Source: Aneurinibacillus thermoaerophilus (GTDB lineage Bacteria; Bacillota; Bacilli; Aneurinibacillales; Aneurinibacillaceae). From it: a DNA stretch of 51,865 nt. A program made the translations under genes and the position numbers. The notes beneath the pieces are model-generated. The model was given only the letters and a program-made list of their open reading frames with translations. It ran no database searches and was not told the origin of the DNA. Position 1 is the first letter of the stretch, and every line of letters begins with the position of its first letter. Positions 38,946 to 41,535 of this stretch are shown piece after piece. The stretch is from positions 1 to 51,865 of the forward strand of contig NZ_FNDE01000023.1 in assembly GCF_900099925.1 (NCBI RefSeq). Reading direction: 5' to 3'.

Positions 38946-39079
38946 GTATGAGCCAATTTTTCATTGAATTTATAAAAACGAGAATATACTATTTGATTTT
39001 CTTCATTTTTCGGAGTAACATTACAAAATATATATGGCAAATTTATCCTTACCAAAATGTGTATAAATGAAGTGATAAT

Positions 39080-39408
39080 TTGGAAGACATGAGGCAGACC
39101 CTTAATAAACCAGCGAATGCAATTCGAAAAGATGATTTTATGAAAGATGACATTTCCACCCTTGACTTCCTTAAACTTTTAACTAAACTTGATACCCTAG
39201 TCCTAAGTAATCATCAAATTAAAGACATATCCCCCTGTAAAGCATTAAAAAATCTAACTTGGATATACGCGGTTCAAAGGTAAAGTCTGTTACGCCATTA
39301 ACTAAATCGGATAAATTAGAAATTCTACTTGTAGATAAGAAACAAATCAAAGGAATAAATTTATTACCCAAGAAAGTAAAGATCTCCGATCATACTATTA
39401 CAGACTAA
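39080..39408 (+). pseudogene. Leucine-rich-repeat protein fragment with a frameshift
   Basis: The first frame (39080-39283) reads an internalin-like cap and repeat: ISTLDFLKLLTKLDTLVLSN then HQIKDISPCKALKNLT. After ACT at about 39261 the repeat continues in another frame as LDIRGSKVKSVTPLTKSDKL and then EILLVDKKQIKGINLLPKKV, stopping at 39408. Restoring one T in the run ACTTGG would rejoin the reading frames. The 5' end is also short: it starts at a TTG with no signal peptide or upstream repeats. A terminator follows. It is most likely a decayed gene; a sequencing error is possible. Confidence 0.65.
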
Positions 39409-39410
39409 AC

Positions 39411-39438
39411 AAATCCCCCTAAAAAATCAGGGGGATTT
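39411..39438. terminator. Bidirectional terminator
   Basis: AAATCCCCCT pairs with AGGGGGATTT. It lies between the frameshifted repeat gene and the convergent C39-like gene and is flanked by A/T runs. Confidence 0.8.
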
Positions 39439-39445
39439 TATATGT

Positions 39446-39982
39446 TTACTTCGTGTAGTAATTGATATACTCTACGGCACCTTTTTGATTAATCACGTCA
39501 GCCAATGTTTTATTTTTAGAACTACCTGGGTCATTAACGAGGATCATGTTAGAAGTAATTTTGGATAAATCAGGATTTCCTTTTGCATCAACAGGAAGCG
39601 TTCCGTTAAAGCCTCTTGCAACTACAGTATGCCCCGGAACACGAACCATAATCGGAATTTTACTATTGACGATAAGGTTAAAGATACTATTTTTTAGCTT
39701 ATCAAAGCTTCCAAAAGTTTTATCTTTATACGTATGCTTATATTCTTTAGCAGCGGACAACCAGTTAAAGGGGCAGTCAGCCTTACTTTTCTTTAGTTTT
39801 TCCAGCATGGTTTTAGGAGTAACATTGTCACCAAAACTTTTAAAAATCATAGCAACGGAAGTAATAATGCACCCTTCTGCACTCATCGTACCGCCACAAC
39901 TCGTTTTTAAAGATCCCCATTGAGAATCACCTTGTTTCCAGCTTTGCGTTTTCAAATCCACATTATACGTTTTGGTTGCCAT
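39446..39982 (-). CDS. C39-like cysteine peptidase domain protein
   Basis: This 178-residue single-domain protein has a papain-like C39 pattern: an N-terminal QSWKQGDSQWGSLKTSCGG, the catalytic Cys in MSAEGCIITSVAMIFKSFG (about residue 38), the catalytic His in VRVPGHTVVARGF (about residue 118) and an Asp in ILVNDPGSS (about residue 149). It has no signal peptide, transmembrane segment or ABC transporter fusion, unlike bacteriocin-processing C39 peptidases. The substrate is unknown. ATG 39982 has AAAGGAGAG upstream. It is transcribed from a promoter (40080-40111) whose element is shared with the divergent sigma-like operon, and its mRNA starts with a long hairpin. Confidence 0.78.
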   Translation of the reverse strand: MATKTYNVDLKTQSWKQGDSQWGSLKTSCGGTMSAEGCIITSVAMIFKSFGDNVTPKTMLEKLKKSKADCPFNWLSAAKEYKHTYKDKTFGSFDKLKNSIFNLIVNSKIPIMVRVPGHTVVARGFNGTLPVDAKGNPDLSKITSNMILVNDPGSSKNKTLADVINQKGAVEYINYYTK

Positions 39983-40010
39983 TTTCTACTCTCTCCTTTA
40001 GATATCTTTT

Positions 40011-40075
40011 ATAGAACGAAAGGAGGACAGAGTCCCAAGATTTCCCCCTAACCTTGTTTCCCTGTTTCGTTCTAT
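40011..40075 (-). promoter_or_regulatory. 5' leader hairpin of the C39-like gene
   Basis: The perfect 11-bp inverted repeat ATAGAACGAAA (40011-40021) and TTTCGTTCTAT (40065-40075) has inner pairings ACAG/CTGT and CAAG/CTTG. On the minus strand the outer arm begins about 5 bases after the -10 element, so the mRNA would start in the hairpin. It could stabilise the message or be a binding site. Confidence 0.6.
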
Positions 40076-40079
40076 GATG

Positions 40080-40111
40080 ATAAAGAGAAAGACAGATTAT
40101 TTTTGGCAACC
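40080..40111 (-). promoter_or_regulatory. Shared-element promoter of the C39-like gene
   Basis: The minus strand carries GGTTGCCAA (40111-40103), a 15-base spacer and CTCTTTAT (40087-40080). The identical nine-base and eight-base blocks with the identical spacer precede the divergent sigma-like operon. Neither half is a sigma-A consensus. Confidence 0.75.
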
Positions 40112-40408
40112 AGAATTGAAAAATTTCTTTATAAAAATTTCGGCTCCACACCAAACTCTGTTTTTAATATGATGCGACGTTACCTACACATGAAAGATCC
40201 GTCACCTTTCAACATTTGGGCATATCGTATTTCTTCATCTTCCTGCCATTCGTATGACGTGTAAAGAGTGTCAAGCTTCTTTTGTGTGACAAATAAAAAA
40301 AATGAAACATACCCACCACAACTATCTTCAATAAATAATAATAGGCAATAAAAACGCTCCCTCTTTAGTCGTTTTATTTATAAAACATGATATTGAAACT
40401 AATTTTAG
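40112..40408. other. Intergenic region between divergent promoters
   Basis: This stretch is mostly A/T-rich with no convincing gene. In one minus-strand frame, about 40291-40186, it reads VTQKKLDTLYTSYEWQEDEE followed by IRYAQMLKGDGSF, which is protein-like but has no start codon or ribosome-binding site. It may be a remnant. Confidence 0.35.
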
Positions 40409-40440
40409 GGTTGCCAATTTGGATTTTAATTCCTCTTTAT
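40409..40440 (+). promoter_or_regulatory. Shared-element promoter of the split sigma operon
   Basis: GGTTGCCAA (40409-40417), a 15-base spacer and CTCTTTAT (40433-40440) match the C39-gene promoter exactly in both blocks and spacing. The -10-like block is the left half of a palindrome (CTCTTTAT-AC-ATAAAGAG, 40433-40450) that ends next to the ribosome-binding site. Confidence 0.75.
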
Positions 40441-40462
40441 ACATAAAGAGGGGGTAAGAGAA

Positions 40463-41095
40463 GTGTCTATCACAAAATTTTTGAGACAAGATTCTCATTT
40501 CAAAAAAGATGTCGTTCAATTTATCAACGATCATCCAATTTTACTTTCAAATCCCATCCTTAAAAATTTCCTTAAGGAAAAGAAAAATCTGCTCCTTTTT
40601 ATTCAAGCGGTAAGTTCTTCTACAAAAGAAAGTAAAAAGAAATTGGACAAATCATTTAAAAATTATTATCTGAAAATTCGATTAGTTAACTTTATGTCTA
40701 AACTCCTTTATTACAGTGCGATTGATTACGATAAAAAGATTCGCAAACATAATCAAAGGTATCTTTTGATACTGGATAAACCGGTTCAAAATGCATCACA
40801 GGACGACGAAATCACAATTGTTGATTTGATTCCTTCTAATGAACAACCTTTTGATGGACAAATTATCGAGAAAAATAACGTTTTAGAGGAAATCATAAGT
40901 GATCCTCTCCTAAGTAAAGCTATAAAAAGATTAACACCCAAAGAAAAATTAATAATAGAACTTGCTTATGTTCATGCTATGTCAGATCGTACAATCGCCA
41001 AAAAATTATGTATATCACATCAAGCCGTAAGTAAAACACGTAAAAGAGCTATTGCTAAAATTCGAAGCTACATGGAGGAAAGAGATGTCGTTTAA
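40463..41095 (+). CDS. SigO-like sigma-70 family factor (region 4 subunit)
   Basis: This 210-residue protein has a C-terminal sigma region 4 helix-turn-helix (about residues 155-205: RLTPKEKLIIELAYVHAMSD then RTIAKKLCISHQAVSKTRKR). The N-terminal half is basic and helical and lacks a clear region 2 core. This is the layout of B. subtilis SigO (YvrI), which works with a separate small region 2 subunit, RsoA (YvrHa). The next gene, overlapping by 11 bases, looks like RsoA. GTG 40463 is the start, with GGGGG 8 bases upstream. The promoter carries the element also present at the divergent C39-like gene. A single-subunit factor of the UviA/TcdR type is an alternative reading. Confidence 0.7.
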   Translation: MSITKFLRQDSHFKKDVVQFINDHPILLSNPILKNFLKEKKNLLLFIQAVSSSTKESKKKLDKSFKNYYLKIRLVNFMSKLLYYSAIDYDKKIRKHNQRYLLILDKPVQNASQDDEITIVDLIPSNEQPFDGQIIEKNNVLEEIISDPLLSKAIKRLTPKEKLIIELAYVHAMSDRTIAKKLCISHQAVSKTRKRAIAKIRSYMEERDVV

Positions 41096-41345
41096 AATAG
41101 GAGATTTACCTTCTTTGCTTAAAGAAGCACAAAATAAAAACTTAGATGCTATGTTACTTTTCATCCAAACATTTAAGCCAAAGTTAAAGTCTTCCCTTTA
41201 CCAAACATCTATAGGTGAGCGTGAAGATTTAGCACAAGAGTTAACTTTAAAAATCATAGAGGCTATATATAATTATGATCTGGAGGCTACTCCTGGATTT
41301 TTCGAGTTTATAGAACAAATAGAAGGGAACAGCGGAGCAAAGTAG
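41085..41345 (+). CDS. RsoA-like co-sigma factor (region 2 subunit)
   Basis: This 86-residue protein begins MSFKIGDLPSLLKEAQNKNL. Its core resembles sigma region 2: FIQTFKPKLKSSLYQTSIGE followed by REDLAQELTLKIIEAIYNYD. The size and the EDLxQEL core match RsoA of B. subtilis, the partner of SigO that supplies the core-binding region. It overlaps the upstream sigma-like gene by 11 bases and is followed by a terminator, so the two are expected in equal amounts. A related reading is a helix-turn-helix protein of conjugative elements, which also derives from sigma region 2; no other conjugation genes are nearby. Confidence 0.65.
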   Translation: MSFKIGDLPSLLKEAQNKNLDAMLLFIQTFKPKLKSSLYQTSIGEREDLAQELTLKIIEAIYNYDLEATPGFFEFIEQIEGNSGAK

Positions 41346-41361
41346 ATCCGCTAGTGTTTTT
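41331..41361 (+). terminator. Terminator of the split sigma operon
   Basis: AGCGGA (41331-41336) pairs with TCCGCT (41347-41352), followed after AGTG by five T. It overlaps the last codons of the RsoA-like gene. Confidence 0.65.
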
Positions 41362-41395
41362 ATTCATTTGACGTGTTAGCAGGCAAATGAATAAA
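41359..41395. repeat. 12-bp perfect dyad
   Basis: TTTATTCATTTG (41359-41370) and CAAATGAATAAA (41384-41395) are exact reverse complements with a 13-base gap. This may be an operator or a remnant end of a mobile element. Confidence 0.55.
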
Positions 41396-41465
41396 TATCA
41401 AAAAAAGATGTATATACGCTAATGTCGTTGCATAAACAGCCTAGAGATATGCTATGCTGAATTAA

Positions 41466-41535
41466 GAAAAACCCGCGTACTGCGCCCGCTTCATACAGTA
41501 GAAGCGAAGGCGTGGCGCAACTCCGCGCGTTTTTC
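41466..41535 (+). promoter_or_regulatory. Three-tier hairpin in the kapB leader, terminator-like
   Basis: Nested stems are AAAAACCCGCG with CGCGCGTTTTT (41467-41477, 41524-41534; one mismatch), TGCGCC with GGCGCA (41481-41486, 41514-41519), and CGCTTC with GAAGCG (41487-41492, 41501-41506). A T-run is built into the descending arm. Its place 27 bases before the kapB start suggests transcription attenuation, or a terminator for read-through from upstream. Confidence 0.5.

Follow-up and report, generated by a model that had tools for sequence, protein, structure and literature searches.

A 51,865-nucleotide stretch of contig NZ_FNDE01000023.1 of Aneurinibacillus thermoaerophilus, referred to here as the window, carries two sigma factor-like genes and, divergent from them, a gene for a C39-like protein. 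The same two short sequence blocks lie upstream on either side. Do these blocks form a promoter that is read by RNA polymerase carrying the adjacent two-subunit sigma factor, and if so, what would such a factor control?

An exact two-block repeat beside a split sigma factor

The blocks GGTTGCCAA and CTCTTTAT, which the initial annotation reported 15 nt apart on both sides of the divergent pair, are present there without a mismatch. The predicted promoter of the sigO-rsoA operon spans positions 40409 to 40440 of the plus strand, with a putative -35 element at 40409 to 40417 and a putative -10 element at 40433 to 40440; that of the C39-like gene spans 40080 to 40111 of the minus strand, with the corresponding elements at 40111 to 40103 and 40087 to 40080. 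The two spacers are, as described, equal in length (15 nt) and unrelated in sequence, and beyond the -10 block the two promoters are unrelated as well. A chance origin had been judged unlikely, and the counts agree: with up to 3 mismatches allowed, the window contains just these two sites, against an expectation of 0.13, and none of 100 shuffled sequences gave two.

The whole-genome scan called for by the annotation found three exact sites in 3,658,529 bases with spacers of 13 to 17 nt allowed; all three have the 15-nt spacer, and a reversed control gave none. The third copy adjoins a second, damaged SigO-RsoA pair on contig C81, where two more sites carry two mismatches each, again with N15 spacers. 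The annotation also asked whether hits in related genomes accompany the sigma pair. Among 15 genomes of the order, 32 sites match with no more than 2 mismatches. We assigned 13 of them ourselves to SigO-RsoA loci (those in G003, G007, and C81 hold damaged or partial pairs); the other 19 are no more numerous than the 28 sites of the reversed control. N15 variants are kept at the same places in related species. In a paralogous pair of this genus, sigO is preceded by a distinct variant, which reads GGTTGTNNN-N16-TTCTTTAT in three genomes; a fourth genome has TTCTTTAA.

The first gene of the window pair (40463 to 41095, plus strand) has a GTG start and encodes a SigO-like subunit of 210 aa with a C-terminal sigma region 4 (PF04545, E = 8e-8; TIGR02937 above cut-off; region-4 matches in the PDB); a structure model of this subunit has a pLDDT of 69. 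The gene is overlapped by 11 nt by the second gene (41085 to 41345, plus strand), which encodes an RsoA-like subunit of 86 aa with sigma region 2. This protein matches PRK14082 (E = 2e-17) and the RsoA family NF041489 (E = 6e-12), both below the cut-offs; its NF041489 score is 45.4 bits against a required 100, and the best of the four RsoA-like genes of this genome reaches 53.1. A profile of 13 RsoA-like proteins retrieved seven PDB sequences at E ≤ 0.1, all of them sigma factors aligned over region 2 (best E = 0.004). When the structure model of the RsoA-like protein (mean pLDDT of 74) was searched with Foldseek, the top nine of 21 matches were sigma factors, with probabilities of 0.89 to 0.99 and E values of 0.1 or worse; matches to region-2 structures of ECF factors were included. 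Sigma regions 4 and 2 are found on separate adjacent genes, as in SigO-RsoA, and since the RsoA scores fall below the cut-offs, the window pair is, as judged from sequences and models, a divergent relative of the Bacillus subtilis SigO-RsoA and no equivalog of it.

The locus does not encode a single-chain group V sigma factor: there are two chains, and they match RsoA-type and general sigma-70 families best. A phage origin was considered and rejected; the window SigO matched no phage record and RsoA a single one weakly, and among viral contigs there were 12 weak matches to region 4 and none to RsoA. The segment holding the sigma and C39-like genes (39000 to 41500) is AT-rich, with 30 to 37% G+C in 500-bp steps versus 44.5% for the whole window, as if it had been acquired.

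The C39-like gene, its homologs, and a conserved leader

The C39-like gene (39446 to 39982, minus strand) encodes a papain-fold protein of 178 aa (PF13529, E = 2e-6), by eye without a signal peptide, for which a sequence search found no relative in the PDB. A strong terminator-like hairpin, on both strands, is present at 39411 to 39438, just past the gene. Among 398 genomes, 11 have a match to this protein at E ≤ 0.001; three matches besides that in its own genome are strong, at 44 to 63% identity. Only 1 of 72,556 plasmid records matched, a Brevibacillus laterosporus plasmid on which the gene adjoins a SigO-RsoA-type pair.

The upstream regions of sigO and of the C39 gene were compared within each genome by an unbiased two-block comparison with a 15-nt gap. 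In the window genome, this returned exactly the pair of blocks described above (17/17 identical positions, P = 0.0017). In genome G320, where sigO and the C39 gene are 590 kb apart, the comparison returned GGTTGTKAT-15-ACCTTTAT (16/17, P = 0.0017), and in G393 it returned GGTTGTTTT-15-CACCTT (15/17, P = 0.01). A 13-nt gap scores 16/17 at another place in G393, so this case is weak when taken alone. Upstream of the remaining two C39 homologs, GGTTG and, after it, a weaker second block can be seen by eye. The C39 homologs in two distant genomes have a promoter like that of their own genome's sigO, strongly so in G320 and weakly so in G393.

Directly downstream of the C39 promoter, at 40008 to 40076 on the minus strand, lies a conserved 5' leader with a hairpin. 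This leader of ~70 nt downstream of the -10 block is common to five cargo genes of four kinds: C39, DUF3238, C92-like (below the cut-off, in two genomes), and one that matches no Pfam family. When 15 genomes were searched, the leader occurred five times, in four genomes, and always at such cargo promoters. The window copy folds 3.5 standard deviations more stably than shuffled sequences (z = -3.5), the folding of two of the five copies is ordinary, and three base pairs are changed on both sides among the five sequences, a weak covariation. Rfam gave nothing at the leader and one subthreshold match elsewhere. The pattern suggests that cargo genes are exchanged while the promoter and leader ahead of them stay together as a fixed cassette.

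Block spacing and neighboring genes across Bacilli

To place the element in a wider setting, an RsoA alignment was run against 398 genomes of the class; the pair loci studied are among the matches listed. Forty stretches were fetched, 33 outside and seven within the Aneurinibacillaceae. Those 33, together with ten plasmid loci, one further plasmid, and nine directly fetched loci, give a set of 53 loci from outside the family, 384 kb in all, picked solely for the presence of a sigma pair. Loci L006, L052, and L073 were left out of the LexA-box, profile, motif-finding, and block-distance counts, and eight sigO loci, five of them duplicates and three truncated, were dropped before the LexA-box and profile counts.

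In the 53 loci, among the matches listed, GGTTG and CTTTA are separated by exactly 21 nt in 39 pairs, versus 0 to 4 pairs at every other distance within 5 to 45 nt and 2 pairs at 21 nt in the reversed control. The corresponding distance in the window is likewise 21 (4 + 15 + 2). The 39 sites are spread over 29 of the 53 loci, some of which come from related genomes, so that not all sites are independent. This recurrence beside SigO-RsoA pairs agrees with the view that blocks at a fixed spacing have the form of -35 and -10 elements.

Eight of the 39 sites have sigO itself downstream. Others precede N-acetylmuramoyl-L-alanine amidases (L084, L087, and L094; L093 with peptidoglycan-binding repeats), a DUF3238 gene (L098), subtilases (L109 and L160), a phospholipase A2-like protein just under the cut-off (L107), or an annotated glutaredoxin (L160); several genes have no Pfam match, and 7 of the 39 sites have no assigned reading frame. 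On Bacillaceae plasmids, SigO-RsoA pairs repeatedly have a gene annotated as glutaredoxin family next to them (L160, L161, L163, L165, L166, and L168).

A profile built from the Aneurinibacillaceae sites would be circular within that family, and only the 41 other loci were therefore counted; the motif lies upstream of sigO at P ≤ 0.01 in only 8 of them (0.4 expected) and at P ≤ 0.05 in 11. On a genome-wide scale, GGTTGT-N20-CTTTAT occurs 85 times in 59 genomes with a strong RsoA match, against 52 for the reversed pattern (76 against 52 without one repeat-rich genome), and the bare consensus is therefore weakly specific. Two other approaches were set aside: two-block de novo motif finding by EM on 35 upstream regions, left after the removal of six near-identical ones, missed the promoter and settled instead on T-tracts and on a portion of the SOS box, and the pattern GGTTGN18-21YTCTTTAT was too unspecific, with matches in every one of 15 genomes.

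In B. subtilis, SigO-RsoA (YvrI-YvrHa) likewise has regions 4 and 2 on two adjacent genes, in an operon with its own promoter. The available portions of the literature describe it for B. subtilis only, with a role in acid stress and three target operons, sigO, yvrJ, and oxdC (PMC8103513), the oxdC promoter being an output of the factor (PMC10028694). In a B. subtilis-group genome with oxdC-, yvrJ-, and yvrL-like genes, we found by eye AGTTTACTT-15-CATTTAAT before sigO, AGTTGACTT-15-CACTTAAC before oxdC, and GGTTTACAA-16-CACTTATA before yvrJ. The 9-15-8 geometry of sigO and oxdC is, by eye, that of the window, whereas the block letters differ, being AGTTKACTT/CAYTTAA for SigO-RsoA of the B. subtilis group. 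The unbiased comparison was not significant in this genome (14/17 for sigO and oxdC, with a shuffle maximum of 14, and 13 for sigO and yvrJ). The window pair further differs from the B. subtilis system in its low RsoA score and in having no YvrJ gene within 10 kb; its locus has no BhlA-like match, and neither oxdC-yvrL nor yvrJ is among the reading frames near the pair. Judged by sequence, the window pair has a putative autoregulatory promoter in common with its target gene, as in SigO-RsoA.

Elsewhere, a YvrJ profile matches in 43 of 64 pair loci; when the ten loci from which it was built are excluded, the figure is 33 of 54. BhlA-like proteins are present in five further pair loci, three of which were used in building the BhlA profile. 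Only 1 of 46 shorter control loci matches, and it is itself a sigO locus. The putatively regulated neighbors are often holin-like proteins, wall hydrolases, proteases, or lipases, in which signal peptides are not evident by eye.

The other pairs of the window genome display such neighbors. The C81 locus (L004, 439 to 3077) consists of a divergent holin-like and amidase operon, a sigO whose N-terminal frame is disrupted by eye, an intact rsoA, and a DUF3238 gene; a reverse-transcriptase-like fragment was seen by eye downstream. Its divergent operon, whose predicted promoter has two mismatches to the element, encodes first a holin-like protein of the BhlA type, which matches phrog_1625 ("involved in bacteriocin production or immunity") at E = 2e-28, and then an amidase (PF01520, E = 1e-17). 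A. aneurinilyticus and A. danicus encode similar holin-like proteins at this position, and in A. danicus a similar amidase was also seen by eye. Next to the third pair (L099, contig C56) are YvrJ and a gene for a phospholipase A2-like protein in which no signal peptide is evident; the contig ends near a truncated sigO and has a LexA-like fragment at its other end. The fourth (L100, contig C41, 6717 to 8782) is an operon of sigO, yvrJ, rsoA, and a subtilase gene with the predicted promoter GGTTGTCAA-N16-TTCTTTAT, a layout that G003 and G005 share, as does G002 by eye, though its sigO is truncated.

LexA boxes and the proposed switch

Taking the recurrent 21-nt distance together with the sigO-like promoters at C39 homologs, we consider it very probable (about 0.9) that GGTTGCCAA-N15-CTCTTTAT is a promoter read by polymerase with the two-subunit sigma factor encoded at 40463 to 41345. 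The simplest model of the initial annotation, transcription of both the sigma operon and the peptidase gene by the split sigma factor, is supported by indirect, converging lines: the sigma homology of the pair, the recurrence of the blocks beside such pairs and before sigO, and the sigO-like promoters at C39 homologs in two genomes. By analogy with ordinary sigma factors, region 4 of SigO would read GGTTGCCAA as the -35 element and region 2 of RsoA would read CTCTTTAT as the -10 element. With the element as its promoter, the SigO-RsoA polymerase would amplify its own operon and switch on the divergent C39-like gene; it probably also acts at three C81 promoters, those of the holin-like operon, sigO2, and the DUF3238 gene, where the element is exact or has two mismatches. 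From these sequences we infer binding, transcription starts, and cross-talk between the window and C81 loci.

The sigO upstream regions also carry a second signal. An exact LexA (SOS) box, GAAC-N4-GTTC, as in LexA-controlled operons of Bacilli, is present in 6 of 12 Aneurinibacillaceae regions and 18 of 41 others (0.03 and 0.13 in shuffled sequences), and in 8 of 10 plasmid loci, for a total of 32 of 63. There are 24 boxes in 14.8 kb within the 53 sigO regions versus 7 in 355 kb outside them, and the window genome's own lexA is preceded by the same box. In the 40 nt that follow the 32 exact boxes, GTTG occurs 16 times in all, on 15 occasions 7 to 10 nt away; box and SigO-type -35 therefore form a composite element in 15 of 63 regions, a near-fixed spacing that sets these relatives apart from other LexA-controlled operons. 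A sigma-A -10 element is weakly enriched upstream of the boxes (22 of 32, versus 15.0 in shuffled sequences, with a standard deviation of 2.7 and a maximum of 23). No exact box lies upstream of sigO in the window, where the best match has 3 mismatches, or in five B. subtilis-group copies (2 to 3 mismatches); the C81 sigO has a match with one mismatch. SOS induction as the trigger is supported by sequence in the relatives, without such support for the window copy.

That poor SOS match, together with the broken frame of the C81 sigO, could mean that the window pair is inactive and its promoters are relics. We regard this as unlikely, since both window frames are open, with lengths near those of their relatives, and the promoter blocks are perfect while the spacers have diverged. 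Composite elements in which a LexA box sits near the -35 block imply that other proteins act there, and the two window sites could accordingly be a sigma-A promoter or another regulator's operator common to both genes, with the sigma pair merely adjacent. Here the annotation's statement that neither block fits sigma-A needs correction for the first block, which contains TTGCCA, one base from TTGACA; it stands for the second, in which a good -10 is lacking, and a scan for sigma-70 promoters calls none made of the blocks. Asymmetric blocks at a fixed 21 nt in 29 of 53 loci have the form of a promoter, unlike a dimeric operator, and the G320 C39 gene keeps the element far from the pair, all of which makes this explanation highly improbable. 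That a promoter segment was copied in the recent past, by duplication or gene conversion and without common recognition, has very little chance of being correct. The shared leader of the cargo promoters shows that segments are evidently copied, but the window sites have kept the blocks and their distance alone, and the 21-nt distance recurs in distant genera.

With the element read as the promoter of the two-subunit factor, a broader proposal can be made, to which we would give even odds: SigO-RsoA-type split sigma factors across Bacilli and their plasmids may be DNA damage-gated release switches. LexA would hold a composite element made up of an SOS box, 7 to 10 nt, GTTG, about 21 nt, and CTTTA. 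Upon release of LexA, the two-subunit sigma factor would amplify itself and turn on a holin-like membrane protein of the YvrJ or BhlA type. Co-induced cargo, namely, wall hydrolases, proteases, phospholipases, or papain-like enzymes that lack signal peptides, would presumably leave through the holin or by lysis. The module would then be an independently evolved counterpart of clostridial UviA/UviB and TcdR, and the acid-stress oxdC of B. subtilis would be a derived case.

The clostridial loci are known here by description. In the available text, UviA, UviB, an amidase, and a signal-peptide-less Bcn5 lie together (PMC9527704), and group V loci have non-sigma-A promoters common to the sigma and cargo genes (PMC4885068). 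As described, UviA-UviB/TcdR-type loci likewise combine a dedicated sigma factor, a BhlA-type holin, an N-acetylmuramoyl-L-alanine amidase, and cargo without signal peptides, but their sigma factor is a single-chain group V protein, whereas two SigO-RsoA-type subunits are found here, and the cargo families differ. In the text reached by an open literature search, we found no paper linking a SigO-type two-subunit sigma factor to LexA. The two-subunit sigma factor has been described before; what appears to be new is a counterpart of the clostridial UviA/UviB modules with a split sigma factor and SOS gating.

With a family-wide promoter signature, the regulons of many uncharacterized split sigma factors could be read directly from the DNA sequence. 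The LexA box, together with holin-like, amidase, and leaderless-enzyme neighbors, poses a testable question: may DNA damage lead to enzyme release through a sigma factor made in two pieces?
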